Source of the DNA: Synergistaceae bacterium | Lineage (GTDB): Bacteria > Synergistota > Synergistia > Synergistales > Aminobacteriaceae | Length of the DNA stretch: 14,945 nt | Direction of reading: 5' to 3' | Assembly (NCBI GenBank): GCA_017455085.1 | Contig: JAFTBT010000172.1 | Location: 1-14,945, forward strand | Shown: positions 1 through 14,945 of the stretch, piece after piece | Numbering within the stretch: the stretch's first letter is position 1 | Layout: each line of letters starts with the position of its first letter | Notes under the pieces: generated by a model | The model's database searches: none | Told to the model about the DNA's origin: nothing | The model's input: the letters and a program-made list of their open reading frames with translations, nothing else | Translations under genes and position numbers: made by a program

Positions 1-1
1 A

Positions 2-1384: not shown

Positions 1385-1415
1385 AGAGTTTTTTGTGAAC
1401 ATACAGGCAGAGATT

Positions 1416-1450
1416 TTCCCTCGTGTGAAGGTTCATGCGGGGGAATTTTT
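1416..1450 (+). terminator. Intrinsic terminator after the secretin gene
   Basis: An 8-bp stem pairs TTCCCTCG (1416-1423) with CGGGGGAA (1438-1445), with one G-U pair. It encloses a 14-nt loop and is followed by TTTTT at 1446-1450. It lies 31 nt after the secretin stop codon. Seen directly in the sequence; strength not calculated. Confidence 0.75.
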
Positions 1451-1493
1451 GTGTTTATGGGCTGATGTGAAACTCTGATATTGATGTGATGAT

Positions 1494-1589
1494 ATATGCT
1501 CTCAAGCTGTGAGGGAGGCACTGACGCAAAAGCTGTATTCTGTTGCGAGGGGGAGTGTAGCATAAATAGATATGCTCTCAACCTGTGAG
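1494..1589. repeat. Pair of 20-bp near-identical direct repeats (1494-1513, 1570-1589)
   Basis: The copies read ATATGCTCTCAAGCTGTGAG (1494-1513) and ATATGCTCTCAACCTGTGAG (1570-1589), matching at 19 of 20 positions and offset by 76 bp. The 3' half carries a short CTCA...TGAG inverted repeat. A much weaker partial echo (ATATATTCTCAA) occurs at about 1674-1685. They lie in the non-coding space before efp. Function unknown; possible roles are a protein-binding site or a small dispersed repeat. Confidence 0.6.
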
Positions 1590-1598
1590 AAAGCAGCC

Positions 1599-1662
1599 GT
1601 TGATTCTTGACTCTGCATTTGAGGCTGTTATGGCGTGTTGATTCTTGACTCTGCATTGAGGC
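1599..1662 (+). repeat. Pair of direct repeats carrying TTGACT (1599-1624, 1637-1661)
   Basis: The 21-bp core GTTGATTCTTGACTCTGCATT occurs at 1599-1619 and 1637-1657. Each copy continues into GAGGC, with one extra T in the first copy. The offset is 38 bp, exactly half of the 76-bp offset of the upstream repeat pair. Each copy contains a possible -35 hexamer TTGACT, but only the second is followed by TATAAT. Confidence 0.65.
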
Positions 1663-1675
1663 CGTATAATATAAT
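1645..1675 (+). promoter_or_regulatory. Candidate sigma-70-type promoter for the efp operon
   Basis: TTGACT (1645-1650) is followed by two overlapping TATAAT boxes at 1665-1670 (14-nt spacer) and 1670-1675 (19-nt spacer). Neither spacer is the ideal 17 nt. The perfect -10 boxes in a short AT-rich patch just before the operon make this the best candidate. The transcription start would lie at about 1677-1683, giving a leader of some 45 nt. Inference from motif only. Confidence 0.5.
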
Positions 1676-1723
1676 ATATTCTCAAATTCACACACACATA
1701 ATTTTTCAGGAGGGTATACATTC

Positions 1724-2299
1724 ATGGCAGTAGCAGATACTACTAGTTTTTACGTGGGCTTAAAGTTCCGTTGGCAGGGCGGCATCTGGGAGATAGTCGA
1801 GTATGACCACCACAAAATGGGCAGAGGCGGCGCAGTCGTCCGTACAAAGCTCCGCAACGTCGAGACAGGCTCCATCGTGGAAAATTCTTTCAAGCCAGGC
1901 GAAAAGTTCGAGCGCATAATCTACGAGGACAAACCCGCTCAGTACTCTTACAGGGACGGCGAAGACTATGTATTCATGGACTTGGCCACCTACGAGGAAA
2001 TGAGGCTCTCTCCACAAGTTCTCGGCGAGGCAGCAAAATATCTCGTCGACGACATAGAGATTCAGCTTGAGTACTTCGAAGGCAAAGTCATGGGCATAGA
2101 GCTTCCCAAGAGCGTCACCATGAAAGTCATCGACACTCCCCCTGCGTTCAAGGGCGACACAGTTACCGGCGGAGGCAAACCCGCAACCCTCCAGACGGGA
2201 CTCGTAGTGACTGTACCGGTATTTGTCGAACCCGGAGAAGATATCGTAGTAGACACCCGCACCGGCGCATACTTGGAACGCGCAAAAAAGGGTAACTAG
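1724..2299 (+). CDS. efp: Elongation factor P with arginine at the tip position
   Basis: Encodes 191 residues, close to the usual 185-190. The ATG at 1724 follows AGGAGGG (1708-1714) with 9-nt spacing. EF-P binds between the P and E sites of the ribosome and relieves stalling at polyproline stretches. The N-terminal KOW-like domain carries the loop HHKMGRGGAVVRTKLRN. The central and C-terminal OB domains are recognisable, ending in the family signature around GEDIVVDTRTGAYLERAK. Residue 34, at the loop tip where E. coli EF-P has the beta-lysylated lysine (PGKG), is arginine here (MGRG). Arginine at the tip is known in EarP-rhamnosylated EF-Ps (Pseudomonas, Neisseria), but the surrounding loop here is of the ordinary GRGGA type. 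It is the first gene of the operon and the Asp23-family gene starts 2 nt after its stop. Confidence 0.96.
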   Translation: MAVADTTSFYVGLKFRWQGGIWEIVEYDHHKMGRGGAVVRTKLRNVETGSIVENSFKPGEKFERIIYEDKPAQYSYRDGEDYVFMDLATYEEMRLSPQVLGEAAKYLVDDIEIQLEYFEGKVMGIELPKSVTMKVIDTPPAFKGDTVTGGGKPATLQTGLVVTVPVFVEPGEDIVVDTRTGAYLERAKKGN

Positions 2300-2301
2300 C
2301 C

Positions 2302-2706
2302 TTGCCTGACGATAAGCCCTCAAACGGCGGGGCTATACATATTTCTGAGGACGTAATCTCAGAGTTAGCCCGCAAAACCATTCAGGGAATCCCCAACATC
2401 AAGACAGCTTCACGGTCAGGCTCAAAGTTCGGGCTTGGCCGCAAAAGCTCAGGCATAAAAGTCTCTGTAGACCACCCGCATGGCTGCATAGACATTGATG
2501 CGTATGTACTTGTGCGCTATGGCCAGAGGATACCCGATCTTGCTTGGGACGTTCAGGAAAAAATCAAGGACAATCTCGAACGCTACACCGGCTACAGCGT
2601 CAGGGCAGTGAATGTTAATGTTCAGGGGATATATTCTGACGCAGGGGATGACTTCACGCTGGACATAGGGACAGAATCCCAAGAACCTGACGACGAGGAA
2701 GACTAG
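2302..2706 (+). CDS. Asp23/Gls24 (DUF322) family envelope-stress-type protein
   Basis: Encodes 134 residues from a TTG at 2302, two bases after the efp stop. An AAGGG (2288-2292, inside efp) can serve as ribosome binding site. The protein shows the Asp23 pattern: an N-terminal strand GAIHISEDVISELARKTIQGI, a glycine-rich loop, GIKVSVDHPHGCIDIDAYVLVRYG, and a C-terminal YSVRAVNVNVQGI, then an acidic tail. Family knowledge: these are cytosolic proteins that often sit at the membrane through a partner (AmaP in staphylococci) and are linked to cell-envelope homeostasis. The gene commonly lies between efp and nusB in Firmicutes, as here. There is no signal peptide or membrane segment in this protein. 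The next gene starts 1 nt after its stop and could supply the membrane partner. Confidence 0.88.
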   Translation: MPDDKPSNGGAIHISEDVISELARKTIQGIPNIKTASRSGSKFGLGRKSSGIKVSVDHPHGCIDIDAYVLVRYGQRIPDLAWDVQEKIKDNLERYTGYSVRAVNVNVQGIYSDAGDDFTLDIGTESQEPDDEED

Positions 2707-2707
2707 C

Positions 2708-3154
2708 ATGTATTTTCGGTGGAAGGATACGCCTTACGGGATAATACGGGTCTCATGCGGGGGCTTGCGGGAATTTGTGGGAGAAGCAGTGAAATCGAGG
2801 CTGAGGCTGTACGGTGTAACGTTGCAGGGCTCAGACAGGAAGGAAGATGCAGATATGAGTATAGTACTGTCTGAGGAAAACGTGATACCTGAGACAAAGA
2901 AGAAAGTAGAGCAGCATTTTACGGCAGTGTTTGAGCCGATGGGGATAAATGCGTCAGTAGTGTGGGCAGTTCCCGACAAGAGCATAGTGAAGTTTTTGTG
3001 TTCGCCGTGGTCATGGGCAGGGATCGGAGCGTGTGTAGCGGGCTTCGTGAATGCTGGGTCGGCAGGATTTTTCTGGACGGCGTTCTGGGCGGCAGCAGGA
3101 TGGTTCTCCGTGCATGGCCTGAATGTGTTAGCGCGATACCTCAGGAGGCCTTAA
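2708..3154 (+). CDS. Small protein with two C-terminal membrane segments; possible Asp23-like membrane anchor
   Basis: Encodes 148 residues starting at ATG 2708, one base after the Asp23-family stop. I do not recognise it as a named family. Residues 1-90 are soluble and charged. Residues 91-148 contain two hydrophobic stretches (about 92-114 and 117-135) ending in a basic tail RYLRRP, so it is probably an inner-membrane protein. The N-terminal part (GIIRVSCGGLREFVGEAV ... MGINASVVWAV) follows the order of an Asp23 fold: an opening strand, a helix, a strand, then a helix and a closing strand after a G-x-x-A/V motif. This suggests a diverged Asp23-like domain fused to a membrane hairpin. AmaP has the reverse order, with membrane segments first. 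Existence of the gene is well supported by packing; the function is a guess. Confidence 0.8.
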   Translation: MYFRWKDTPYGIIRVSCGGLREFVGEAVKSRLRLYGVTLQGSDRKEDADMSIVLSEENVIPETKKKVEQHFTAVFEPMGINASVVWAVPDKSIVKFLCSPWSWAGIGACVAGFVNAGSAGFFWTAFWAAAGWFSVHGLNVLARYLRRP

Positions 3155-3155
3155 C

Positions 3156-3635
3156 ATGACCGCAAAAAAATTCATAGGCCGCAAGTTCGGAGCAATACAC
3201 CGGTCTCGTGAGCTTGCAGTGCAGTTTTTGTACTCGGTTGATGTGTGTCCGGAACAGAATACCAGTGAGGCGTTGGAGCTGTTCATGACGCTGGATGATG
3301 TTGCGCAGGAGGATAAGCCCGAAGTCAAGGAGCGGTGCAGAGAATTGGTGCGTCAAGTTTTGGCGAGGAAGGCAGAGATTGACGGAGTGCTTTTGCGGGT
3401 AGTTACCGGCTGGAGGCCTGAGCGTATGGTCAGCGTGGACAGGACTATATTGCGCTTGATGGTGCTGGAGGGATTCATGCTGAAGACGCTTCCGGTGAAG
3501 GCAGCAGTGAGTGAAGCGACGAGTCTGGCGGGAGATTTTGGGACTACGGACTCGCCGAGATTCGTGAACGGAGTCATGCGGAGGGCAGCGAAATATTTTG
3601 AGGGCAAAGGAGACGGAGAGGATGCCGGAGATTGA
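3156..3635 (+). CDS. nusB: Transcription antitermination factor NusB
   Basis: Encodes 159 residues. The ATG at 3156 follows CAGGAGG (3142-3148) and lies 1 nt after the previous stop. NusB forms a dimer with NusE (ribosomal protein S10) on boxA RNA and supports antitermination of rRNA operons. Typical features are the N-terminal basic SRELAVQFLYSVDV, the central helices, and the C-terminal block MVSVDRTILRLMVLEGFML ... PVKAAVSEATSLAGDFGTTDSPRFVNGVMRRAA, which matches the family consensus (vInEaveLaK.fg...s..FvNGvLd). The protein carries a short acidic C-terminal tail. Its last 14 nt overlap the start of the glycosyltransferase gene, so the two are probably translationally coupled. Confidence 0.95.
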   Translation: MTAKKFIGRKFGAIHRSRELAVQFLYSVDVCPEQNTSEALELFMTLDDVAQEDKPEVKERCRELVRQVLARKAEIDGVLLRVVTGWRPERMVSVDRTILRLMVLEGFMLKTLPVKAAVSEATSLAGDFGTTDSPRFVNGVMRRAAKYFEGKGDGEDAGD

Positions 3636-4572
3636 TATATTGATGGCGGTTAGAAACGGGGAAAAGTACATAGCAGAGCAGATAGATTCGATTCTTAACC
3701 AGACATTTCAAGACTTCAGGCTGATCATACGCGATAATAGCTCAACCGATAACACCCCAGCAATAATTGAGGAATACGTGAAGAAATATCCGGGCAAGGT
3801 TCAGGCAGTTCATGATGATGTTGACTGCACAGCGAGCTTCACGGAAAACTTCATGCAGCTGTTGACGTACGCAGAGGCTGATTACGTGATGTTCACGGAT
3901 TCTGATGATTACTGGCTGCCGTACAAGATTCAGGTCAGTTTGTGGCACATGAAGGAACTCGAACGCAAGAATCCCGGTATGCCTGCGCTGGTATTCTCAG
4001 GCCTGCAAGTGGTAGATGAAAACCTCCAGAGCATGGATAAATGTTCACAGTACATTACTGGCGTACCTGAATACAGGAACTTCACGAACCTTCTGCTGTC
4101 GAACGTAGTATCAGGGTGTACGTCTATACTGAACAGAGCACTGTACTCGAAATCCAAAGGCTACATAGAGGACATGCCTTTTGCACATGACAGCTTTTTC
4201 GGAGCGATGGCTTCGGGGTGCGGGGTTTTGGAGCATATACCTGCAGCAATGATACTTTACCGTCAGCATGGACACAATGCTTCAGGCTATATTGGAGCAA
4301 GCGGGAAACACGGTGTTATTATGAGCTGGCTGGTGAAGGTGCTGGAATTTAGGACATACGCGGTAAACGTGAGGAAAAAATGCAAGTTTATGCTCGAACA
4401 TTACTCTGACGTGATGCTTCCAGAGAGGCGTGAGAATCTGGAGAAGTTTGTGGCACTGCTGGACAAGCCAAAGATAGCGAAGTTCTTCATGCTGCTGTTC
4501 GGGAAGTGGTACAAGCTGGAGGGTCGGCTGTATTGCAAGATAAAGTACTTTTTCAGGGTAGTACTGAGCTGA
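3622..4572 (+). CDS. Family 2 glycosyltransferase, rhamnosyltransferase-like
   Basis: Encodes 316 residues from ATG 3622, chosen because it follows GGAGACGGAGAGG (3609-3621) and starts right before the GT-A fold (PEIDILMAVRNGEKYI). A TTG at 3598 is in frame but would add eight unconserved residues. The nucleotide-sugar part shows DNSSTD (38-43) and DSDD with YW (93-98), the metal-binding signature of the DQDDxW subgroup. Later come HD at 189-190 and YRQHGHN (213-219), a pattern I associate with O-antigen and exopolysaccharide rhamnosyltransferases. No membrane segment is obvious, so it is likely a cytosolic or membrane-peripheral enzyme. The acceptor is unknown. The gene overlaps nusB by 14 nt, an unusual partner for a polysaccharide gene. 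EF-P in the same operon carries an arginine tip. A link between the two is speculative. Confidence 0.88.
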   Translation: MPEIDILMAVRNGEKYIAEQIDSILNQTFQDFRLIIRDNSSTDNTPAIIEEYVKKYPGKVQAVHDDVDCTASFTENFMQLLTYAEADYVMFTDSDDYWLPYKIQVSLWHMKELERKNPGMPALVFSGLQVVDENLQSMDKCSQYITGVPEYRNFTNLLLSNVVSGCTSILNRALYSKSKGYIEDMPFAHDSFFGAMASGCGVLEHIPAAMILYRQHGHNASGYIGASGKHGVIMSWLVKVLEFRTYAVNVRKKCKFMLEHYSDVMLPERRENLEKFVALLDKPKIAKFFMLLFGKWYKLEGRLYCKIKYFFRVVLS

Positions 4573-4589
4573 TTGCAGGCATAATAAAT

Positions 4590-4619
4590 CCCCCCAAACG
4601 TTCAGGGGGGAAATTTTTT
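4590..4619 (+). terminator. Intrinsic terminator between convergent operons
   Basis: CCCCCC (4590-4595) pairs with GGGGGG (4605-4610) around a 9-nt loop and is followed by AAATTTTTT. It ends the efp-to-glycosyltransferase operon. On the minus strand the same stem is followed only by ATTTATTA, so it may also stop gatB transcription, but less well. Confidence 0.85.
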
Positions 4620-4624
4620 CGGGA

Positions 4625-6094
4625 TTACTTCACAGCTTCGGCTATAGCTTCTGCAACTTCCTGAGGCTTTGCCTGTCCCTTAGTCTCCTTCATGACGAGT
4701 CCCTGCAAGAACTTCAGCTTTTTGCCCTTCTTGTCCCTGCCGGAGCGAATCTCCTCAAGTACGTCCGGGTTCGCTGCAATAACACTCGCAATAATATCGT
4801 TCAAGGCGTTTCCTGCAATTCCTCCCTCAGTAATGCCGAGAGCCTTTATCGCGTCATCAAGGCCTGCATTTTTCGCAGTCATGTAGTCAAAAACTTCTTT
4901 GCCCTGCGTGGTCGAGAGTTTCCCCTCATCAACACGCTTCACCAGTCCCGCCAAAACCTCCGGAGAAATTCCGAATCCAGCTATCTCCTGCACCTTCTGG
5001 CCTGATTCGTTCAGCACACGCAGCACTTCAGTACGCACCCAGTGAGCAGCCCTCACAGGATTCGCCCCGGCCTTCACGCACGCCTCGAAGTAGTCCGCAA
5101 GATTCCTGTCGTCCGTCAAAACGTCAGCAACTTCACGCGGCACTCCCCACTCGTTAACGTAGCGATTTGCTCTCACGTCGGGCATTTCGGGCATTCTGGC
5201 AGCGACTCTGTCGATCCATTCCTGCGAGATATACAGCGGAGGCAGATCGGGCTCAACGATGAACTTCCTGTAGTTTTCCTTTACCCTTGATGATGAAGTT
5301 ATACCCTGTGCGTCGTTCCAGTGCCGAGTCTCCTGTATGACTTCTCCGCCCTGAAGCATGATTTTTCTCTGACGCTTTATCTCGTACTCTATAGCCCGTT
5401 CCAGAGCCTTGAAGGAGTTCATATTCTTCACTTCGACTTTTTTGCCCCAGCGGCCGTCACTGCACTTCATGGACACGTTCGCGTCAAAGCGCATCATCCC
5501 TTTTTCGAGTTCCACGTCCGAAGCTCCAGAGTATATTACGCGTCTCCTGAGGGTCATAACGTACTCCACAGCCTCAGCAGCACTCGCAACATCCGGTTCT
5601 GAGACTATCTCCGCTAACGGAGTCCCTGACCTGTTGTAGTCAACGTATGATGTATCTGCGCCCTCAAGCCTGCCGTCTGAAGCACTGTGATGCAAGCTCC
5701 CTACATCCTCCTCAAGGTGAAGATGGTGTACGCGTATTTTCTTGAGGTTGCCTTCTGAATCATGCACCTCAATGTAGCCCGATGTGGTTATTGGCAAATC
5801 GCACTGGCTGACCTGATGGCCTTTAGGCAGATCCGGGTAGAAATATGACTTCCGGAAAAATAATGACTTGTGACGGATTCCGCAGTTCAGCGCAAATCCC
5901 GCTAACATACCCTGCTCCACAACATGGTGATTCAGGTACGGCAGACTTCCCGGAAGACCCATGCATACCGGGCAAATATTCGTGTTGGGTGCTGCGTCAG
6001 TGTTCGTTGAGCATGAGCAGAAAAGTTTGGAGTCAGACTTCAGACGAATGTGTATCTCTATTCCGATTACCGGTGTAAAAGTAAGTTCGGCCAT
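4625..6094 (-). CDS. gatB: Aspartyl/glutamyl-tRNA(Asn/Gln) amidotransferase subunit B
   Basis: Encodes 489 residues. I place the start at the ATG whose first base is 6094, two bases after the gatA stop. An upstream in-frame ATG at 6103 overlaps gatA and lies only 2 nt from GGAGGG, too close to use well. GatB binds the mischarged tRNA, phosphorylates the Glu or Asp moiety and uses ammonia channelled from GatA. The N-terminal block IGIEIHIRL, NTNICPVCMGLPGSLP, the EEDVGSLHH motif and SGTPLAEIVSEPD are family signatures. Cys26, Cys28, Cys41 and Cys44 form the zinc-site pattern present in a subset of GatB proteins. The C-terminal YqeY-like tail (LKFLQGLVMKETKGQAKP) binds the tRNA elbow. Last gene of gatCAB. 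Confidence 0.97.
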   Translation of the reverse strand: MAELTFTPVIGIEIHIRLKSDSKLFCSCSTNTDAAPNTNICPVCMGLPGSLPYLNHHVVEQGMLAGFALNCGIRHKSLFFRKSYFYPDLPKGHQVSQCDLPITTSGYIEVHDSEGNLKKIRVHHLHLEEDVGSLHHSASDGRLEGADTSYVDYNRSGTPLAEIVSEPDVASAAEAVEYVMTLRRRVIYSGASDVELEKGMMRFDANVSMKCSDGRWGKKVEVKNMNSFKALERAIEYEIKRQRKIMLQGGEVIQETRHWNDAQGITSSSRVKENYRKFIVEPDLPPLYISQEWIDRVAARMPEMPDVRANRYVNEWGVPREVADVLTDDRNLADYFEACVKAGANPVRAAHWVRTEVLRVLNESGQKVQEIAGFGISPEVLAGLVKRVDEGKLSTTQGKEVFDYMTAKNAGLDDAIKALGITEGGIAGNALNDIIASVIAANPDVLEEIRSGRDKKGKKLKFLQGLVMKETKGQAKPQEVAEAIAEAVK

Positions 6095-6096
6095 GA

Positions 6097-7533
6097 TTAG
6101 CATATCCCTCCGTTCGCAATTTTCGGTGTGCCTAAGTGACGCTGCAAGACTATTCCGGTGTTGAGGATGTCCGAGTCACTCCAGCGAGGCCCTATCAGCT
6201 GCAGACCTACAGGCAGATCCTCAGCATACCCCGAGAAGAATGACAGCCCCGGCAGTCCGGCCAAGTTCACCGGAAGTGTGTACAAGTCAGTTTCGTAGCC
6301 CTTCATAGCGTCATCTTCAGGCTCACCGATTTTTTCGGGCAGTGAAGGCGTAACAGGCTGCAAGATAAACTCACACTCACCGAATGCCCTCGTGAACTCC
6401 TGAGCTATGAGCGTCCGGACTTTCGTAGCAGCAACGTAATACTCCTCGCAACGTGACGGCTCCGTTAAGCAAGTGCCTGCTATGATTCTGGCTTTGACTT
6501 CGCTCCCGAAACCGTAAGACCTCACGCGTTCAAACATCTCTTTGATTCCCCGTGCGTCTTTGACCGTATAGCCTAATCTTACGCCGTCGTAACGCTCCAG
6601 ATTCGTGTGTGCCTCACTCATGGCAAGAGCATAGTAGCAAGCTACAGCATACTTCGCGACAACAGGCAGAGATACTTCGGTGATGATTGCACCTTCGGAT
6701 TCGAGTATCTTTCTGGTCTTGGCTAGAGCCTCAGCGATCGGAGCATCAAGCGTGAAATTCTGGAACTCCTTCACGAGGGCGATACGTTTACCCTTCACGG
6801 AAAAGTCCAGCTTGTGTGAAAAGTCGTGCGGTCTGTCGCGGAAGCTGCTGGAATCCATAACGTCATGACCAGAAATTACGGACATGATGATTTGCAGGTC
6901 CTCAACTGTGCGAGCAAACGGGCCTATCTGGTCGAGTGATGACCCGTAAGAGATTAATCCGTAACGACTCACCATGCCGTACGTGGGCTTGAAGCCGTAT
7001 ACTCCGCAGAAGCTAGCCGGCTGACGGATGGAGCCTCCTGTGTCGCTGCCGAGTGAGAAGGGTACGTAGCCAGCACTGACAGCAGCAGCACTGCCTCCGG
7101 AAGAGCCGCCCGGGACGCGTGAAATGTCGTTGGGGTTGTGTGTCGGACCGAAGGCAGAATTTCCGCAGGTGTTGCCCATCGCGAACTCGTCCATGTTGAC
7201 CTTGCCCATGAGGACAGCTCCAGCTTCGCGCAGGGACTTCCAGGCTGTGGCATCGTATGGAGGTCTCCAGTTGCCGAGAATTTTGCTTGCGGCAGTGGTT
7301 CGGAGTCCTTTGGTGCATAAATTATCCTTGAGGACTGTGGGAATCCCGGACAAGAGTCCGTTGGGATTCTGTGAGGCCTGAAATTCTGAGTCAGTGCGGG
7401 TAATAAACGCGTGTATATTCGGCTCGCAGGAGTCTATTCTGGCTTTGCAGGAGGCGAAAAGCTCGGAAGGGGAAAATTTTTTGTCCCTGAGACCCGCAAT
7501 TGCGTCGTGTAGATTCAGTTCGTATAGCTGCAT
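6097..7533 (-). CDS. gatA: Aspartyl/glutamyl-tRNA(Asn/Gln) amidotransferase subunit A (glutaminase/amidase)
   Basis: Encodes 478 residues. The ATG at 7533 follows GGAGGA (7546-7541 on the minus strand, inside gatC) with 7-nt spacing. GatA is an amidase-signature enzyme that hydrolyses glutamine and passes ammonia to GatB. The Ser-cisSer-Lys triad is intact: Lys69 (VLKDNLC), Ser144 (GGSSGGS) and Ser168 (GSDTGGSIRQP). These are offset by a constant ten residues from the S. aureus triad Lys79, Ser154, Ser178. Residues GNTCGNSAFGPTHNP and the long amidase-signature block are also conserved. Three bases separate it from the gatC stop, and its stop lies just before the gatB start. Confidence 0.98.
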   Translation of the reverse strand: MQLYELNLHDAIAGLRDKKFSPSELFASCKARIDSCEPNIHAFITRTDSEFQASQNPNGLLSGIPTVLKDNLCTKGLRTTAASKILGNWRPPYDATAWKSLREAGAVLMGKVNMDEFAMGNTCGNSAFGPTHNPNDISRVPGGSSGGSAAAVSAGYVPFSLGSDTGGSIRQPASFCGVYGFKPTYGMVSRYGLISYGSSLDQIGPFARTVEDLQIIMSVISGHDVMDSSSFRDRPHDFSHKLDFSVKGKRIALVKEFQNFTLDAPIAEALAKTRKILESEGAIITEVSLPVVAKYAVACYYALAMSEAHTNLERYDGVRLGYTVKDARGIKEMFERVRSYGFGSEVKARIIAGTCLTEPSRCEEYYVAATKVRTLIAQEFTRAFGECEFILQPVTPSLPEKIGEPEDDAMKGYETDLYTLPVNLAGLPGLSFFSGYAEDLPVGLQLIGPRWSDSDILNTGIVLQRHLGTPKIANGGIC

Positions 7534-7536
7534 GAT

Positions 7537-7827
7537 TTAGTCCTCCATGATTCTGGGTACTTTGAAGTATGAGCCGTCTACGTGTTCGCTTTCGTGGAGT
7601 ATGGCTTCATTGTCCGGTAAGGGAATTACTTTGTCGTCGCGCAGGGGACATTCGAGGACTTCGGCAAAACTGAAGGGCTCAACGTCTTTGAGGTCTAACT
7701 CTTTGAAGCAGTCGAGCATGTCTAGAAAGTTGTTGATGTAGCGGACAGCTCCGGTGAGTTCCTGTTCAGTGAGGAGAAGGCGGGACTCTAGAGCTATCTC
7801 GTTGACTTGTTCAGCATCAAGTTTCAA
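7537..7827 (-). CDS. gatC: Aspartyl/glutamyl-tRNA(Asn/Gln) amidotransferase subunit C
   Basis: Encodes 96 residues, the usual GatC length. The start is TTG (first base 7827) preceded by AAGGAG with about 9-nt spacing; there is no nearer ATG. GatC wraps around the GatA-GatB interface and stabilises the complex. The N-terminal helices VNEIALESRLLLTEQEL and the segment YINNFLDMLDCFKELDLKDVEP match the family, as does the C-terminal region with LRDDKVI and YFKVPRIMED. First gene of the gatCAB operon. Confidence 0.95.
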   Translation of the reverse strand: MKLDAEQVNEIALESRLLLTEQELTGAVRYINNFLDMLDCFKELDLKDVEPFSFAEVLECPLRDDKVIPLPDNEAILHESEHVDGSYFKVPRIMED

Positions 7828-7872
7828 GTTATTACGCTCCTTTATGTGAATGGGGGTAAAAATTTCGTGAGT

Positions 7873-7901
7873 ATTATATCAGTGTCCGAGTGAGATAAAC
7901 T
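7873..7901 (-). promoter_or_regulatory. Candidate gatCAB promoter (minus strand)
   Basis: On the minus strand a perfect TATAAT occurs at 7878-7873, about 46 nt upstream of the gatC start. The -35 region is poor: TTTATC with a 15-nt spacer, or GTTTAT with 16. The -10 box makes it the best candidate in the region. Inference from motif. Confidence 0.45.
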
Positions 7902-7904
7902 GAT

Positions 7905-8040
7905 TCATGCTGGTATAGTTTGCGCCGAAGGTCAATTTTTCGTCTCAGGTCTGGCTGGGAATATCCGAACCATGCATCAGAGAATATCTGATTGTCCTGC
8001 CGAACACTGCGCCAGAATTTACTCATGCACAAGGCACTAT
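7905..8040. other. Unexplained part of the gatC-dapA intergenic region
   Basis: This stretch lies between the gatC promoter and the promoter of the dapA leader. It contains a perfect 6-bp inverted repeat ATCAGA-GAATA-TCTGAT (7976-7992). A 99-codon frame on the minus strand (8173-7874) covers it, but that frame has a TTG start, no ribosome binding site at any candidate start, and crosses the gatC -10 box. I recognise no RNA family here. Confidence 0.3.
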
Positions 8041-8045
8041 AAAGA

Positions 8046-8074
8046 TTGACAGAATAATTTTTCACGTTTATCAT
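8046..8074 (+). promoter_or_regulatory. Near-consensus sigma-70 promoter upstream of the dapA leader
   Basis: TTGACA (8046-8051) and TATCAT (8069-8074) are separated by 17 nt, matching the consensus at 11 of 12 positions. Transcription would start at about 8080-8082, giving a leader of about 300 nt before dapA. It probably drives the dap-lysC operon. Confidence 0.75.
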
Positions 8075-8120
8075 TTCATTTATCGCATAAACACATTTTT
8101 TCACAGGGAGGACTCGCAAG

Positions 8121-8210
8121 ATGACTATTGCAGCATTTGTTGACGGCTGGTCATTTTCTGCGTACACCCTCAAGATAAAACGTAACTGTCTATTGTTCTT
8201 TGGTGAATGA
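8121..8210 (+). CDS. Candidate 29-residue leader peptide upstream of dapA
   Basis: ATG 8121 to TGA 8208-8210. It is preceded by AGGGAGGA (8105-8112) with 8-nt spacing, as good a ribosome binding site as any in the window. The product is 29 residues, beginning MTIAAFVDGW and ending RNCLLFFGE. It includes T-L-K-I-K, with Lys codons AAG at 8172-8174 and AAA at 8178-8180. Just downstream, CTGTCT (8186-8191) can pair with GGACAG (8212-8217) across the stop codon. A terminator follows at 8243-8279. Promoter, short ORF, hairpin and terminator before a biosynthetic gene is the layout of a transcription attenuator. Two lysine codons are few for that role, so this stays tentative. It could instead be a small unrelated peptide or part of a small RNA. 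Confidence 0.4.
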   Translation: MTIAAFVDGWSFSAYTLKIKRNCLLFFGE

Positions 8211-8242
8211 CGGACAGCTAATATACTATCAATGCATATCAG

Positions 8243-8279
8243 AGCCGCTCTTCATCAGGAACATAGGGGCGGTTTTTTT
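8243..8279 (+). terminator. Intrinsic terminator/attenuator in the dapA leader
   Basis: The arms 8243-8252 (AGCCGCTCTT) and 8265-8274 pair over 10 bp, with G-U pairs at the base and near the loop. They enclose a 12-nt loop and run into TTTTTTT (8273-8279). The position, after a promoter and short ORF but 101 nt before dapA, suggests conditional termination. An AGCCG in the 5' arm (8243-8247) is complementary to CGGCT in the leader ORF (8144-8148), a possible but short competing pair. Confidence 0.7.
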
Positions 8280-8379
8280 GTGTGTACTGATAGTGCGTGT
8301 GTATGTTTGTGATGCGTGTACGTTATGCGTATTTGTATTTACGTGTGTATTAATAATTCACAGGAGGTTTATATTAACC

Positions 8380-9267
8380 ATGACAGACAGCCCAATTTTC
8401 AAGGGAGTAGCTACCGCCCTCATCACTCCACTCAATGAGCAGGGTGTGGACTACGAATCTTTCGGCAGACTCATAGACTGGCAGTGTGAGCAAGGTATCA
8501 ACGCACTCGTTATCGCCGGCACTACAGGTGAAGGCTCAACCCTCAACGACGCAGACCACAAAGCCGTCATCAAGTTCTCTGTCGAACGCATCGCAGGAAG
8601 GTGCAAGGTCATCGCCGCAACAGGCTCAAACGATACCGCCTACGCAATCCAGCTCTCAAAGTTCGCGTGTGACGTTGGAGCAGACGCATTACTAGTAATC
8701 ACTCCTTACTACAACAAGGCCACACAAAACGGGCTAATCACTTCCTTCACGAAAATCGCTGACGCTTCCACAAAACCCATCATCCTCTACAATGTTCCTT
8801 CACGCACAGGCATAAACATAGAGCCGGAAACTTACGCGGCCGTAGCTGAACATCCCATGATTCAGGGCATCAAGGAAGCAAATAGCAACATCAGCAAGAT
8901 CGTCCACACTGCACAGCTCGTTGGCGACAAGCTCGATATATATTCCGGCAATGACGACCAGATTGTGCCGATTCTCTCAATGGGAGGAAAAGGTGTGATT
9001 TCAGTGTTGTCGAACGTTGCCCCAAAGCAGACTATGGAGATCTGTAATAGATTCTTTGCTGGAGACGTTAAGGGAGCTGCTGAGTTGCAGTGCAAGTATC
9101 TTCCGCTCATCAATGCACTCTTCAGCGAAGTCAACCCGATTCCCGTCAAGGCCGCTATGGCTGCAATGGGTTGGTGCGAAAACTATGTGCGCCTTCCGTT
9201 GACACCAATGGAGCCTAAGCACTGGGAACACCTCAAGGCGTTAATGCAGGAGCAGGGGTTAATCTAG
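8380..9267 (+). CDS. dapA: 4-hydroxy-tetrahydrodipicolinate synthase
   Basis: Encodes 295 residues from ATG 8380, which follows CAGGAGG (8361-8367). The frame is open further upstream to 8200, but that extension reads through the terminator and has no family match. DapA condenses pyruvate with aspartate semialdehyde, the first step committed to diaminopimelate and lysine. It is a TIM-barrel class I aldolase. The catalytic residues are all present: Schiff-base Lys165 (IKEANS), Tyr137 (LYNVPSRTG), Thr48 (GTTGE), Tyr111 and Arg142. Each is offset by four from E. coli Lys161, Tyr133, Thr44, Tyr107 and Arg138. The enzyme acts in the cytosol, usually as a tetramer, and is often lysine-feedback inhibited. 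It heads the operon and dapB follows after 2 nt. Confidence 0.97.
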   Translation: MTDSPIFKGVATALITPLNEQGVDYESFGRLIDWQCEQGINALVIAGTTGEGSTLNDADHKAVIKFSVERIAGRCKVIAATGSNDTAYAIQLSKFACDVGADALLVITPYYNKATQNGLITSFTKIADASTKPIILYNVPSRTGINIEPETYAAVAEHPMIQGIKEANSNISKIVHTAQLVGDKLDIYSGNDDQIVPILSMGGKGVISVLSNVAPKQTMEICNRFFAGDVKGAAELQCKYLPLINALFSEVNPIPVKAAMAAMGWCENYVRLPLTPMEPKHWEHLKALMQEQGLI

Positions 9268-9269
9268 CC

Positions 9270-9995
9270 ATGAAGTTAATCATCAACGGTGCAAACGGAA
9301 AGATGGGGCATATCATCACGAAAATGGCAGGCAGTGAAAATATCGCCGCCCTCGTCGACGTGAACCCCGCAGAAGGTATGTACAAGTCCCTCAATGAGTT
9401 CACCGGAGCTGCTGACTGCGTGATAGACTTCACGAATCACAAAGCTACTCCCGAAGTCCTGAACTGGTGCGTGAGTCACAACATGCCCGTGCTGATCGCC
9501 TCGACCGGCCAGACTGACGATGAACTTGCACAGGTACGTGAAGCCGCAAAGAATATCCCTGTGTTCATGTCGCCGAATATGTCCGTAGGTGTCGCACTGG
9601 TGGCAGACTTGGCCGAAAGAGTCACGAGAATCTTCGGGGACTGCGATATCGAGATGATAGAGGCTCACCACAACCAGAAGCTAGATATTCCCAGCGGTAC
9701 AGCCCTCATGCTCGCGAAACGGATTCAGGAGGCTAGAGATACCCTCACGTTCAACATAGGCAGGCACGAAAACGGAAAACGTCCCGAAAACGAGATAGGC
9801 ATTCACTCCTTGCGATACGGCACTGAAGTCGGAACACATGAAGTCATTTTCTCGAACGGCCTCGAAACCATAACTATCAGGCATGACGCAAAGGACAGGG
9901 CATTATTCGCGAAGGGTGCATTAGCTGCGGTGAAATGGCTCGTGAATCAGAAGGCAGGCCTCTACGGTATGAGAGAGTTCCTCAAGGAGGCATAA
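9270..9995 (+). CDS. dapB: 4-hydroxy-tetrahydrodipicolinate reductase
   Basis: Encodes 241 residues, slightly shorter than E. coli DapB (273). The ATG at 9270 lies 2 nt after the dapA stop, with the end of dapA (CAGGAGCAGGGG) as ribosome binding site. The enzyme reduces the DapA product with NAD(P)H to tetrahydrodipicolinate. The Rossmann motif GANGKMG (7-13) binds the cofactor. The catalytic and substrate-binding block [15 protein letters not shown] (131-145) contains the proton-donor His133 and Lys137. The C-terminal strand [19 protein letters not shown] is also typical of the family. Third and fourth operon steps follow immediately downstream. Confidence 0.97.
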
Positions 9996-9997
9996 TC

Positions 9998-10696
9998 ATG
10001 GAAGCTCAGGAAATCATCAGCTTTATTGCGAACGCCAAGAAAGTTACTCCAGTAAAGATATTCATCAAGGAGAGAGAACCTATCGACTTTTCCCACACCA
10101 ACGCAAGAGTCTTCGGAGCTGCTGACAGGATAATTTTCGGGGATTGGTCGGAAATTCAGCCCGTTCTCAGAATGAACAGCGACAAAATCGCAGACATAGT
10201 GATTGAGAATGACGCACGCAATTCCGCTATACCCCTGCTTGACCTGAAGGATATTCCCGCAAGAATCGAACCCGGCGCAATCATCAGGGACAACGTTACG
10301 ATCGGGAAGAATGCAGTGATCATGATGGGAGCAATCCTGAATATCGGCGCAGTTGTCGGTGATGGCACAATGATCGACATGGGAGCAGTTCTCGGAGGCA
10401 GGGCAACTGTCGGGAAAAACTGCCACATCGGTGCGGGGGCGGTCTTGGCCGGAGTCATTGAGCCTGCGAGTGCAAAGCCGGTAATCGTGGATGACGGTGT
10501 ACTCATCGGAGCAAATGCTGTAGTTATCGAGGGAGTACACATCGGTGAAAACGCTGTAGTCGCTGCCGGAGCTGTGGTGATTGAGGACGTTGAACCCGGT
10601 AAAGTCGTAGCAGGTTGTCCCGCAAGAGTCATCAAGGACAAGGACGAAAATACTACCCTCAAGACAGCCCTTCAGCAATCGTTGCGCAAGATATGA
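9998..10696 (+). CDS. dapH: Tetrahydrodipicolinate N-acetyltransferase
   Basis: Encodes 232 residues (B. subtilis DapH is 236). The ATG at 9998 follows AAGGAGG (9984-9990) with 7-nt spacing and lies 2 nt after the dapB stop, so I prefer it to upstream in-frame starts within dapB. Residues 1-90 form the DapH N-terminal domain ([20 protein letters not shown]). Residues 90-212 are hexapeptide repeats forming a left-handed beta helix ([36 protein letters not shown]), ending with the usual [13 protein letters not shown]. The enzyme acetylates tetrahydrodipicolinate from acetyl-CoA. N-acetyl rather than N-succinyl transfer is inferred from the DapH-type N-terminal domain and the M20D-type deacetylase next door. 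Confidence 0.95.
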
Positions 10697-11838
10697 GTAT
10701 AGATTTTTTCAGTGAGGCAGAGTCTCTCAGGCAAAAGCTCACGGAGATTCGCGAGACCATCCACAAAATTCCAGAGATAGGCGATCACGAGTTCAGGACA
10801 GCAGAATTTCTAGAGCATGTTCTGGATGGGTTTGGTATTCCTCATCACAGAGTACTAGACACCGGAATCGTTGCCCGCATTGACGGAAAGCTATCGGGGA
10901 ATCACTGCGCTATACGTACGGACATTGACGCACTCCCAGTGAACGAGGAGACAGGCTGCGAGTTTGCGAGTCAGACTCCGGGAATGATGCACGCTTGCGG
11001 CCACGACGTACACATGACCAGTGCTCTCGGAGCTGCAATGATTCTGAATGCTCACCGTGAGGAATTATGCGGCTCTGTGAGTATTTTCTTCCAGCCCAAC
11101 GAGGAAGGAGACGGCGGAGCTAAACGCATGATTGACGCGGGAGTGCTTGATGGTATCTCTGCGGTGTTCGGAGCGCATGTTGACCCTGCATTACCTGCTG
11201 GACATATCGGGGTGAAGTATGGAGATTTTTACGCAGCTTCTGCTACGTGGAAGATAAATATCATCGGGAAATCCGCTCACGGTGCGCAGAGAGACAAGGG
11301 CATTGACGCGATCGAGGCTGCTGCTCACGTAGTGCCGGAGATTTTGGCGATAAAGGGCGGAGTCGTCAGTGCAGGGACTATTCATGCGGGGACAGCGAAT
11401 AATATTCTTGCTGGCAACTGTGAACTCACGGGCATAGTCAGAACTTACGGCATGGATGAACGCTCCAGAATGTGCCGTGAACTTGAGACTAGGTGCGTTG
11501 AGACTGCGGCCAAGTTCGGGGCTAAGTGCTTGTGCGAAATCACCGACTCTTGCCCGGGAATCGTGAACGACAATGACGCATTGACCTCAATGGTTGAGGC
11601 AACAGCAAGGGAAACTCTCGGCAGTGAATGCGTGGATATTATCGACAAGCCTCTATTCATCAGCGAGGACTTCGGGTACTTCATCATGGCGAAAACAGGA
11701 TGCTTCTACCACATCGGAGCAGGAAGTTCGTACCCATTGCACAGCCCCCATTTTTTGCCCGTACCTGACGCGTTCGTGACAGCTTCAGCAGTTCATGCAG
11801 CCATAGCAAGCAAATATAACTCTACAATACAGGACTGA
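10693..11838 (+). CDS. M20-family amidohydrolase, probable N-acetyl-LL-diaminopimelate deacetylase
   Basis: Encodes 381 residues. The ATG at 10693 overlaps the dapH stop (ATGA), so translation is probably coupled; no strong ribosome binding site is visible. The binuclear-metal residues of the M20D amidohydrolases are present: Cys102 and His104 (HACGHD 100-105), Glu137/Glu138 (PNEEG), His162 (GAHVD) and the C-terminal His350/His353 (LHSPHF). Enzymes of this subfamily remove acyl groups from amino acids (hippurate, auxin conjugates, N-acetyl-diaminopimelate). The position directly after dapH makes N-acetyl-LL-diaminopimelate the likely substrate, as with B. subtilis YkuR. The family is certain; the substrate is inferred from context. 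Confidence 0.92.
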
Positions 11839-11844
11839 TACACT

Positions 11845-13176
11845 TTGAATCGTAATATAGTAGTCGCAAAATTCGGAGGCACTTCATTAGCGGATGCCTC
11901 ACAGATCAAGAAAGCCTGCAACATCATCAACGCAGACCCTTCACGCAAATATGTCGTGGCTTCAGCTCCAGGCAAAAGATACTCAGAGGACATCAAGATT
12001 ACTGACATGCTGTATAAGGCACATGCTCAGGCAAAATCAGGCGAGGATTTTTCGGAGACACTACGCGCCATCAAGGACAGGTACGCGAAAATCATTGACG
12101 GTCTCGGAATCACGTTCGACATTGATGCAGAGATTCAGGAGATAGCCGAAAAACTCAGGGCAGGCACTTCGGCAGACTATCCAGCCAGTCGCGGAGAGTA
12201 CATCAACTCGAAGATTATAGCTGCATTTTTGGGGTGGCAGTTCGTTGACGCAGCACAAGGGATTTTCTTCACGGAGTCCGGACAGCTCGACGAGGCAAAA
12301 ACTTTCCAGACACTCGGCGAAATCCTGAAGGGTTTTGACAGGGCTGTAGTTCCCGGGTTTTACGGCTCTATGCCTGACGGAAGCATCAAGACCTTCTCAC
12401 GCGGAGGCTCTGACGTTACCGGCTCTATAGTCGCTCGTGCAGTGAATGCTGATCTCTACGAGAACTGGACGGACGTTAGCGGAATGCTCAGTGCTGACCC
12501 CAGAGTCGTCAAGAACCCCAAAGTCATTGAGCACATCACCTACACCGAATTGCGGGAACTCTCCTACATGGGTGCTAGCGTACTACACGAGGATGCTGTT
12601 TTCCCAGTGAGGCAGGCAGGAATCCCCATCAATATACGCAACACAAACAGGCCTGAAGATTCCGGGACACTGATTGCTGCATCATTGCCTGAGGAAGTCA
12701 CTAGAAGGACAGTTACAGGGATTGCAGGACGCAAAGGATTCTGTTCGGTCAGAGTCGAAAAGTCCATGATGAACGGTGAGACTGGGTTCGGTGCGAGGCT
12801 GCTGCAGGTTTTTGCGCAGAAGGGTATCCCGTTCGAGCATTGCCCCACAGGAATCGACACCATAAGCGTAATCGTGAACGGTTCGGCTTTCGAGAGCAGG
12901 CGCGATGAGATTTTGCGGGAGATCAAGAACACGTTAGCTCCGGACTTCATCACGATAGAGAAGGGCTTAGCTGCAATAGCTGTTGTCGGTGCGGGAATGG
13001 TCAACGTCAAGGGAGTTGCGGCCAAGATTTTCACGGCACTTGCTGACGCGGGGATAAACATACGGATGATCGATCAGGGGTCTGATGAGCTGAATATTAT
13101 TGTCGGAGTAGATGACTCTGATTATGTCAATGCCGTTAATGCACTGTATAATGTCATGATATCAAGCACCCTATAA
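11845..13176 (+). CDS. lysC: Aspartate kinase 1 (catalytically complete)
   Basis: Encodes 443 residues from TTG 11845, 6 nt after the deacetylase stop, with AGGA at 11831-11834. It phosphorylates aspartate, the first step of the aspartate family. The amino-acid kinase domain (about 1-280) has the full signature set: Lys9 in KFGGTS, Glu118 in SRGEY, FSRGGSDVTG (185-193, with Asp190), WTDVSG (208-213), SADPR (216-220) and VLHEDAVFPV with His248. Two ACT domains follow (about 290-360 and 375-443), including GAGMVNVKGVAAKIFTALADAGINI. The sequence is of the clostridial-type single-chain class. ACT domains usually mediate feedback by lysine or threonine. A paralogue follows 24 nt downstream. Confidence 0.96.
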   Translation: MNRNIVVAKFGGTSLADASQIKKACNIINADPSRKYVVASAPGKRYSEDIKITDMLYKAHAQAKSGEDFSETLRAIKDRYAKIIDGLGITFDIDAEIQEIAEKLRAGTSADYPASRGEYINSKIIAAFLGWQFVDAAQGIFFTESGQLDEAKTFQTLGEILKGFDRAVVPGFYGSMPDGSIKTFSRGGSDVTGSIVARAVNADLYENWTDVSGMLSADPRVVKNPKVIEHITYTELRELSYMGASVLHEDAVFPVRQAGIPINIRNTNRPEDSGTLIAASLPEEVTRRTVTGIAGRKGFCSVRVEKSMMNGETGFGARLLQVFAQKGIPFEHCPTGIDTISVIVNGSAFESRRDEILREIKNTLAPDFITIEKGLAAIAVVGAGMVNVKGVAAKIFTALADAGINIRMIDQGSDELNIIVGVDDSDYVNAVNALYNVMISSTL

Positions 13177-13200
13177 ATCTTTCATGGAAGTGAATAAAGC

Positions 13201-14520
13201 ATGAGCCTCATTGTGTCAAAGTTCGGGGGTATCTCGTTAGCAGACGCAGAAAGCGCAATGCGTACCGCCGAAATCATACGCTCAGATCCTTCACGGCGTT
13301 ACGTGGTAATCTCTTCGCCCGGGATACGCTCCGGAGATGAGATACGTGTTACTGATATGTTCTATATCTGCCACTCACGATATGCGAACAGGGAAAACTT
13401 CACCGAAATGCTCGACAAAATCGAAGCCCGCTTCAACGAAATAGTTCAGGGTCTCGGCGTAAACACCGACATTCACGCGCAAATTTCTGACCTCAAGAAG
13501 AATCTATTTCTTGGCCGAACGAATGACTATATAGTCTCACGCGGAGAGTACATCATGGCAAAAATCATGTCGGACTTTCTGGGGTGGCCGTTCATTGACG
13601 CAGCGGAGATCATTTTCTTCAACAGGGACGGGACTCTAAACGTTGAGAAGACTCTTACGGCGGTGAAGAATATTCTGGGGCCTCTGCCTCATGCTGTAGT
13701 GCCGGGGTTTTACGGGACAGTGTCAGGCACGAACATAAAGACCTTCGAGCGAGGCGGCGGGGATGTTACTGGAGCGTTGATAGCTATGGCCTTGAACGCG
13801 GACATGTTCGAGAAATGGGCGGAGACTACGGAAGTTTTCAGTGCTGACCCTGCAATCATCAAAAACCCTGCAATTATTCGCAACATAACTTACTCGGAGC
13901 TTCGAGAGCTGGCCTATATGGGCATTAATATAGTGTACGAGGATGTTATTCTGCTAATGGAGAAGTCAGGTATACCCACAAGCATACGCAACATTCACCA
14001 CAAGGAAGACATTGGGACTCTGATCACTAAGGAGCTGCCTGAAGGACTGAACAGGAATGTTGTGGCGTGTATAGCCGGACGGAGGAACTACAAGGTCATA
14101 CACATCAGGAAGTTCGGGCTGAACAAGGCGGTCGGAATCGGGCAAAAGGTGTTCGGAATCTTCACGAGCCGGAATATTTCGTGTGAGCATTATCTTTCTG
14201 GGATATACCAGTTCTCTATCGTGGTAAAGAATCCCATGTTTGACCTGAAGCGTGCGGAGATCATACAGGCACTTAATGACGCGATAGCTCCTGAGGACAT
14301 AGAGATACGTAAAGACTTGTCGATTATTGCCGTGATAGGTCAGGGAATGGGGACGGTGAAGGGGATATTTGCGAAAGTGTTCAGTGCGCTTGCTGGAGCA
14401 AACATCAAGGTGAGGCTGATAGAGCAGGGAGGAGATGACCTGAATATCTTGATAGGGGTATACGATGAAGATTTTGAGACAGCGGTCAAGGCACTGTATG
14501 AAACTATGATAGTTCAGTAA
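13201..14520 (+). CDS. Second aspartate kinase paralogue with altered active site, possible regulatory subunit
   Basis: Encodes 439 residues. The ATG at 13201 follows GGAAG (13186-13190). It aligns along its whole length with the preceding aspartate kinase, nearly without gaps, so a tandem duplication is likely. Lys7 and Glu116 (SRGEY) remain, but other signatures have changed: KFGGTS is KFGGIS (Ile11); SRGGSD is ERGGGD (Glu183, Gly187; Asp188 kept); WTDVSG is WAETTE (206-211); SADPR is SADPA (Ala218); VLHED is IVYED (Tyr246 for His). Both ACT domains are present and the second (GQGMGTVKGIFAKVFSALAGA) is well kept. The first differs at the likely effector segment, where CPTGIDTIS has become YLSGIYQFS. 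No frameshift or stop is seen, so it is not a pseudogene. I infer a weakly active or inactive regulatory partner. Weak kinase activity cannot be excluded. Confidence 0.9.
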   Translation: MSLIVSKFGGISLADAESAMRTAEIIRSDPSRRYVVISSPGIRSGDEIRVTDMFYICHSRYANRENFTEMLDKIEARFNEIVQGLGVNTDIHAQISDLKKNLFLGRTNDYIVSRGEYIMAKIMSDFLGWPFIDAAEIIFFNRDGTLNVEKTLTAVKNILGPLPHAVVPGFYGTVSGTNIKTFERGGGDVTGALIAMALNADMFEKWAETTEVFSADPAIIKNPAIIRNITYSELRELAYMGINIVYEDVILLMEKSGIPTSIRNIHHKEDIGTLITKELPEGLNRNVVACIAGRRNYKVIHIRKFGLNKAVGIGQKVFGIFTSRNISCEHYLSGIYQFSIVVKNPMFDLKRAEIIQALNDAIAPEDIEIRKDLSIIAVIGQGMGTVKGIFAKVFSALAGANIKVRLIEQGGDDLNILIGVYDEDFETAVKALYETMIVQ

Positions 14521-14538
14521 GGTTTGCAGAAATTACAG

Positions 14539-14571
14539 CCCTCCTGCGATGAACGGGAGGGTATATTTTTT
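14539..14571 (+). terminator. Intrinsic terminator of the dap-lysC operon
   Basis: CCCTCC (14539-14544) pairs with GGAGGG (14556-14561) around an 11-nt loop, followed by TATATTTTTT (14562-14571). It lies 18 nt after the stop of the second aspartate kinase. Confidence 0.8.
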
Positions 14572-14621
14572 GTGGTAGAATCTTCTGAAATCCAATCACA
14601 TACATTCACAAAAGAAAGGCC

Positions 14622-14650
14622 TTGACAAGATTGCATAATGTGTATATAAT
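14622..14650 (+). promoter_or_regulatory. Perfect-consensus sigma-70 promoter for the MBOAT gene
   Basis: TTGACA (14622-14627) and TATAAT (14645-14650) are separated by exactly 17 nt. Transcription should start at about 14656-14658, leaving a 5' UTR of about 80 nt. Confidence 0.85.
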
Positions 14651-14699
14651 CCCACATCCCACATCCCCATTATTATTGTCTTGTAGCAGCTAGTCTTTT

Positions 14700-14735
14700 C
14701 GGGTTGTCTTTCCTCACGAAACGGAGGGCTGCCCG
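14700..14735 (+). promoter_or_regulatory. 5' UTR hairpin covering the Shine-Dalgarno sequence of the MBOAT gene
   Basis: CGGGTTGTC (14700-14708) pairs with GGCTGCCCG (14727-14735), 8 of 9 positions including G-U pairs, with one U-U mismatch. The stem ends directly at the ATG and its 3' arm takes in the last bases of the ribosome binding site GGAGGG (14723-14728). CCTC (14712-14715) could alternatively pair with GAGG (14724-14727). Either fold would hide the ribosome binding site. Seen in sequence; a regulatory effect is inference. Confidence 0.45.
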
Positions 14736-14945
14736 ATGACTTTCAACAGTTTCGAGTTCATATTTCTGTTTCTTCCCGTCACAATCACACTCTTTTACAC
14801 ATTATCACGTTCACACAAAAATCTCGGTATCCTGTGTCTGATTCTGGCCTCGTTGGCATTTTACGGGAGCTTGAGTCTGCGTTCACTGCCCTTGCTGCTG
14901 GTATCAACATGCGTGAATTTCTGCATAAGCCTCACACTTTCACGT
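14736..14945 (+). CDS. MBOAT-family membrane O-acyltransferase (AlgI-like), 3' truncated by window edge
   Basis: The ATG at 14736 follows GGAGGG (14723-14728) with 7-nt spacing, and 70 codons are visible before the window ends. The start MTFNSFEFIFLFLPVTITLFY closely follows the N-terminal pattern of AlgI-type proteins (M-x-F-N-S-x-x-F-x-x-F-L-P). After a short basic loop (SRSHKN) come LGILCLILASLAFYG and a third hydrophobic stretch, LRSLPLLLVSTCVNFC, which matches the order of the first membrane helices of that family. These inner-membrane proteins transfer acyl groups, often acetyl, to cell-surface polysaccharides with a partner enzyme. The catalytic histidine region lies outside the window, so the substrate cannot be judged. 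It is transcribed separately from the dap-lysC operon. Confidence 0.83.
   Translation, partial: MTFNSFEFIFLFLPVTITLFYTLSRSHKNLGILCLILASLAFYGSLSLRSLPLLLVSTCVNFCISLTLSR

Follow-up and report, generated by a model that had tools for sequence, protein, structure and literature searches.

A degenerate aspartate kinase paralogue behind lysC in Synergistaceae, a probable pseudokinase and candidate partner of LysC

The feedback control of aspartate kinase is familiar from textbooks and from industry, and in one Synergistaceae bacterium the diaminopimelate operon carries two genes for this enzyme in a row, the second with a degraded kinase site. What is such a second copy kept for? The window, by which is meant the whole stretch of DNA analyzed here, comprises 14,945 nucleotides (positions 1 to 14,945, forward strand) of contig JAFTBT010000172.1 in assembly GCA_017455085.1. 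A preliminary description had taken the second gene, lysC2, for a pseudokinase that pairs with the first enzyme and sets its feedback response. Comparison with related sequences suggests that LysC2 is probably a sensor or control subunit and not an enzyme, that is, a pseudokinase retained for ligand sensing. The genes concerned are these.

8380..9267, + strand: dapA, first gene of the diaminopimelate operon (TIGR00674, 330.2 bits against a cut-off of 206.15; start codon approximate)
9270..9995, + strand: dapB (TIGR00036, 195.7 bits against a cut-off of 122)
9998..10696, + strand: dapH / DapD_Ac, tetrahydrodipicolinate N-acetyltransferase of the acetylase type (TIGR03532, 341.4 bits against a cut-off of 231.75; start approximate)
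10693..11838, + strand: amidohydrolase (TIGR01891, 272.1 bits against a cut-off of 153.75; start approximate), probably N-acetyl-diaminopimelate deacetylase to judge by the neighboring genes
11845..13176, + strand: lysC, canonical aspartate kinase, class A (NF006540, 538.8 bits against a cut-off of 434; listed active-site motifs intact)
13201..14520, + strand: lysC2, degenerate aspartate kinase paralogue, class C1 (from motifs, profile scores and tree)
14538..14562, + strand: terminator-like stem-loop with a T run, 3' of lysC2 (9 pairs, 6 of them G-C)

The coordinates of the two kinase genes and the 24 nt between them were right as first described, and the terminator claimed for the second copy corresponds to the stem-loop behind lysC2. 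It is the only + strand terminator-like site listed within 7800-14945, a region in which both strands together hold nine such sites against 5.0 in shuffles. No Rfam family was found in the window at gathering scores. Past the lysC2 terminator, a sigma-70-like promoter (12/12) at 14622-14650 lies ahead of a partial reading frame that starts at 14736 and runs off the window; this frame gave no Pfam match and to our eye presumably resembles the start of an MBOAT acyltransferase.

LysC and LysC2 align almost without gaps (198 identities in 443 columns, or 45%, with gaps confined to the ends), and all five substitutions first reported are found in LysC2, namely KFGGTS to KFGGIS, GGSD to GGGD, WTDVSG to WAETTE, DPR to DPA and VLH to IVY. 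LysC2 falls under the cut-offs of both the NCBIfam aspartate kinase equivalog NF006540 (392.7 bits, cut-off 434) and TIGR00657 (192.9 bits, cut-off 208.7), and it has the fold with an amino acid kinase domain and ACT domains. Database names for proteins of the family vary between "aspartate kinase", "ACT domain-containing" and "hypothetical", so kinase counts in this bacterial group are unsure.

Kinase matches (E up to 1e-20) are present in at least 51 of 180 genomes of the order. The search of the phylum covered 185 genomes, five of them beyond the order set, and 40 genomes had strong matches (E up to 1e-115), with none in the five added ones; the 13 close loci from the genome scan (L001-L012, L017) are from Synergistales assemblies, most from goat, sheep or deer gut. 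The fetched loci yielded 131 kinase frames, of which 130 were aligned and placed in a tree, while G132 (321 aa, under 380 residues) was left out. Since 80 of the regions were hand-picked among the matches listed, and joined to loci found earlier, the numbers of class B genes and of additional copies are minima; fragmentary or interrupted copies (e.g., G061 contig 394, G054 contig 69 and G078 contig 62) stand outside the frame set.

The 130 aligned frames comprise 36 of class A, which is lysC, as a rule behind the dap genes, 21 of class B, an outgroup of six sequences from Mogibacterium or Clostridiales assemblies, and 67 of class C. Two loci from Clostridiales / Mogibacterium assemblies (L013, L014) carry an independent local pair of canonical aspartate kinases, with intact motifs and about 1.1 kb between them. 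Class C consists of degenerate proteins from the genomes of 35 relatives and the window, with one to three (or more) copies each. The class was first defined by motif, so broken motifs in 67/67 are true by definition, and the clade was found afterwards: class C is a single clade beside class A (SH-aLRT 100) with no intact kinase inside, and removing the ATP lobe from the alignment does not break it up. Its subgroups are C1 (30 proteins, including the LysC2 of the window), C2k (18) and others (19). Within the frame set, a full-length class A gene is also present in 30 of the 36 class C holders (35 genomes and the window), and class A is found without class C in six genomes, although genome completeness is not given and such absence is weak evidence. 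The gene lysC2 is not a one-off decaying copy. Early-branching class C members in G052, G013 and G077 retain GGSD, so that the loss of motifs can be traced stepwise.

Class B is canonical, and 19 of its members form one clade. With a simple gene caller, asd and hom were seen to precede 14 of the class B genes and hom another three, a position which suggests that class B is active. At the class B loci (L124, L126-L143, L145, L146), the Arg of the DPR motif is replaced in 17 of 21 (His in 15, Lys in two), and it may be dispensable in this group. The change from DPR to DPA in LysC2, which is present as first reported, is therefore weak evidence when taken alone, because a second canonical kinase class also lacks that Arg.

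PMC3195717 describes Arg198 and Ser201 of E. coli AKIII as binding aspartate, and Thr221 and Arg232 as lying in the ATP-binding lobe. The AKIII residue numbers were carried over to LysC2 by alignment, giving the following positions.

13219..13221, + strand: Lys7 (AKIII Lys8), kept in 30/30 C1
13546..13548, + strand: Glu116 (AKIII Glu119), kept in 27/30 C1
13750..13764, + strand: RGGGD, in which Arg184 and Asp188 (AKIII Arg198 and Asp202) are kept and the Ser201 position is Gly; Asp188 is present in 67/67 class C and Arg184 in 25/30 C1
13810..13854, + strand: ATP-side loop, residues 204-218 (canonical ENWTDVSG....DPR), with the equivalents of AKIII Thr221, Asp222 and Arg232

On the ATP side, the LysC2 of the window has Ala, Glu and Ala at the positions of Thr221, Asp222 and Arg232. 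Its orthologues are substituted at the same places, with Asp222 and Arg232 each retained in 0/30 C1 proteins and Thr221 in 8/30; conservative swaps are common, with Ser at Thr221 in 16/30 and Glu at Asp222 in 26/30. Throughout class C, Arg232 is missing from 67/67 (Lys in two) and the Ser201 position is Gly, Ala or Cys in 61/67. On the aspartate side, to which Asp202 also belongs, the equivalents of Arg198 and Asp202 are both present in the LysC2 of the window. Seven C1 proteins have changes on this side, five at Glu116 and/or Arg184 (G006-G008, G011, G070) and two with a two-residue gap ahead of Asp188 (G009, G010), and the genes of all seven sit away from lysC.

Divergence was compared between regions whose borders were our choice (N-lobe 4-203, ATP lobe 204-278, ACT1 288-362, ACT2 363-436). 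The ratios, given for N-lobe, ATP lobe, ACT1 and ACT2 in turn, were 1.51, 3.68, 1.61 and 1.26 for C1 over lysC (28 genomes with both), 1.25, 3.35, 2.44 and 1.68 for C2k over lysC (16 genomes), 1.62, 4.91, 2.5 and 1.83 for other class C genes over lysC (11 genomes), and 0.79, 1.2, 0.7 and 0.49 for the control, class B over class A (13 genomes). Circular shifts gave an ATP-lobe excess as large in fractions of 0.012 for C1, 0.046 for C2k, 0.007 for other class C and 0.224 for the control. The column sets for the aspartate, ATP and effector sites were likewise our choice, being the AKIII equivalents, neighboring columns and effector positions, and on this basis the C1 ATP-side columns are average (mean entropy above 0.60 of random column sets), and the aspartate-side columns (0.007) and ACT1 effector columns (0.002) are conserved. 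The C2k proteins also conserve the aspartate-side columns beyond random sets, and their effector columns show no particular conservation (0.259).

Neutral evolution of the second copy would have told against the preliminary description, and its evolution is not neutral. Nine C1 pairs gave dN/dS values of 0.04-0.14 (two more were saturated), next to 0.046-0.11 in 11 class A pairs; for four pairs drawn from the remaining class C genes the range was 0.063-0.139. All of these are rough values, as dS is close to saturation in several pairs. Pooled over nine pairs, dN/dS in the ATP lobe is 0.036 in class A versus 0.081 in C1, and within C1 it is lowest in ACT1 (0.047), the most constrained region. 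That LysC2 might instead be a duplicate heading for a pseudogene would fit the stop found within the match of one C1-like copy (G061 contig 394, 4351-5657), which may be an assembly error and lies outside the 30, but decay of this kind is ruled out for C1 by its dN/dS, and for LysC2 we regard it as exceedingly improbable. All 30 C1 frames are open, which proves little by itself because only frames of at least 380 residues could enter the set. In LysC2, the catalytic site has lost its special constraint while the gene as a whole is held by purifying selection, as would be expected of a pseudoenzyme paralogue kept by selection.

Whether the altered site could still serve catalysis is a separate matter. 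An active kinase with an altered nucleotide or substrate would explain why C1 keeps Lys7, Glu116, Arg184 and Asp188 (30, 27, 25 and 30 of 30), and the wide retention of Lys7, Glu116 and Asp188 would allow weak activity of LysC2. The same reading would account for the new Lys205, which takes the place of the Asn preceding the WTD motif in 66 of 67 class C proteins (Arg in the remaining one), and for the conservative nature of the exchanges of Thr and Asp for Ser and Glu. One would expect conservation of a newly shaped nucleotide site, however, and the C1 ATP-side columns are only average, with entropy values that speak against a changed yet conserved site; moreover, the ATP lobe has the largest excess divergence and Arg replaces Lys7 in 18/18 C2k. 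We therefore consider an active LysC2 unlikely. An ATP site freed from its special constraint, together with an aspartate site and effector segment that are held, is the pattern expected of an amino-acid-binding pseudokinase, and with orthologues substituted at the same positions under purifying selection, the pseudokinase reading of the second copy is well supported and LysC2 is probably one.

The ACT domains had been called intact, which holds for the well-kept ACT2 and not for ACT1, where the effector segment has a fixed change.

14185..14208, + strand: ACT1 effector segment, residues 329-336, ending in Asp in canonical kinases (Tyr in 30/30 C1, His in 18/18 C2k, Asp in 36/36 class A)

Asp stands at the residue-336 position in 63/63 kinases of class A, class B and the outgroup together, and its replacement by Tyr or His looks like an altered ligand or an altered response, not decay. 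Mutations of AKIII at Gly323, Thr344 and Ser345 give lysine insensitivity, as stated in PMC10464499. The equivalents of the three positions named there are Gly, Ser and Gly in 30/30 C1, while the Gly323 position is Asp in 9/18 C2k, as in the insensitive AKIII mutant, and likewise in 14/21 of class B. An AlphaFold model of LysC2 (65 aligned sequences) has a mean pLDDT of 91.4 and a pTM of 0.87, and its best solved structural match is the C. acetobutylicum aspartate kinase 3tvi (TM 0.91-0.95 over ten listed chains); from this model, LysC2 would be expected to fold and to bear the usual ACT surface.

The placement of the genes bears on what LysC2 might partner with. Directly behind lysC are 16 of the 30 C1 genes, including that of the window, at spacings of 15-310 nt, and 14 are apart; the basal class C gene of G052 also directly follows lysC, at a spacing of 124 nt, and its counterpart in G013 is found 2.9 kb past lysC. 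From these positions, the lysC-lysC2 tandem is likely the original state. A full lysC locus, with lysC after the dap genes and no class C gene behind, was found in 12 of the 14 genomes with a detached C1.

The tandem placement and the conserved ACT1 effector segment favor a heteromer with LysC, which would be likely provided that LysC2 is a pseudokinase; the 14 detached C1 genes count against it. An alpha2beta2 form of aspartate kinase is described in PMC10464499. Given the pattern of change in LysC2 and its location behind lysC, a mixed oligomer would be the simplest mechanism. In a forebear of these Synergistaceae, the aspartate kinase of the lysine branch would have been duplicated, and one copy would have lost its nucleotide site but retained its fold, a good part of the aspartate site and, in retuned form, the ACT1 effector segment. 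Expressed from the dap operon alongside LysC, LysC2 would join it via the ACT domains in a mixed oligomer, add an effector site of changed specificity and pass the binding of an amino acid, perhaps also of aspartate, on to its active partner. We put the probability of this reading as a whole, a co-expressed pseudokinase duplicate that forms a hetero-oligomer with LysC and relays amino-acid binding, at about 0.55.

Another branch of the family was unexpected in its location, which hints at an unrecognized link. Of the 18 C2k genes, 16 are flanked by kdsA on one side and kdsD on the other (L078-L081, L083, L086-L088, L091-L093, L095-L097, L100 and L103; e.g., L095:4074-8000), at most 58 nt behind kdsA in 16/16, with a class II aldolase gene ahead of kdsA in 16/16 and kdsB called behind kdsD in 15/16, the kds genes being named via one representative each. 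A search for kdsA in 28 genomes that do not have C2k there gave a match in 25 (none in G009, G052 and G066). These comparison loci, which include those of G005 and G013 with C2k elsewhere, have kdsA and then kdsD on the same strand in 24 of 25, with at most 167 nt between match ends and no kinase match between, and in the 25th (G072) the contig ends ahead of the kdsD position. Because kdsA and kdsD stand without a kinase in those 24 loci, a class C copy was inserted into the KDO operon and kept; the idea that C2k replaced a KDO gene was rejected on the same loci. Other degenerate kinases (L076, L077, L085, L089, L098, L099, L102 and L104) are near response regulator, GHKL histidine kinase, LprI-like or ABC transporter genes.

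With 14 of 30 C1 genes detached and other members in the KDO operon or beside two-component and transporter genes, the family may act on partners other than LysC as well. A broader proposal builds on these same placements and on the kinase-free comparison loci: the ATP site would have been lost once and sensing kept, so that the family would be a portable ligand sensor freed from LysC, which would respond to a bound amino acid by acting on a co-encoded enzyme or regulator. It would partner LysC in the lysine operon of one lineage and control KDO (lipopolysaccharide) synthesis from between kdsA and kdsD in another, and two envelope precursor pathways would then be tied to amino-acid supply. We hold this to be a tentative and rather doubtful extension. 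The aspartate side is still conserved, and the basal gene of G052 and half of C1 lie behind lysC, which argues for an original role probably tied to LysC; C2k, with its faster ACT1 (ratio 2.44), may also have a function of its own that is uninformative on C1. For the lysC2 of the window, a pseudokinase partner of LysC is the reading we prefer.

Regulatory pseudoenzyme paralogues are an established phenomenon: in GlgC/GlgD, HisG-S/HisZ and the trypanosomatid prozymes, a degenerate paralogue or relative regulates the active enzyme. These are other enzymes, and the likeness to LysC2 meant here is one of principle. Among titles and abstracts in the literature, with most subscription papers beyond reach, none describes a pseudokinase of the aspartate kinase family. 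The series formed by lysC, the early GGSD-bearing branches of G052, G013 and G077 and the fully changed copies offers a natural test of the transition from enzyme to regulator.

The closest solved relative of LysC2 is 3tvi (CaAK, of the NF006540 kind; 38% identity), which shares the full-length fold and two ACT domains; unlike this type of lysine aspartate kinase, LysC2 is without the ATP-side residues, scores below the NF006540 cut-off and has Tyr for Asp in ACT1. Membership of LysC2 in TIGR02078 (AspKin_pair), which we take to be a paired aspartate kinase paralogue of Pyrococcus regarded as a putative subunit, is ruled out by a score of 64.4 bits against a cut-off of 242.4; the match spans residues 3-275, the kinase domain, and the profile has 327 positions versus the 439 residues of LysC2. 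In the alpha2beta2 kinases of Corynebacterium and of B. subtilis (AKII), a non-catalytic ACT chain completes the effector sites, and LysC2 would be alike in this respect if the heteromer exists. Their small chain is encoded within the gene of the large chain, as its C-terminal portion, whereas LysC2 is a separate full-length paralogue, and a full-length pseudokinase partner kept across dozens of species would differ from a regulatory chain made from an internal start.
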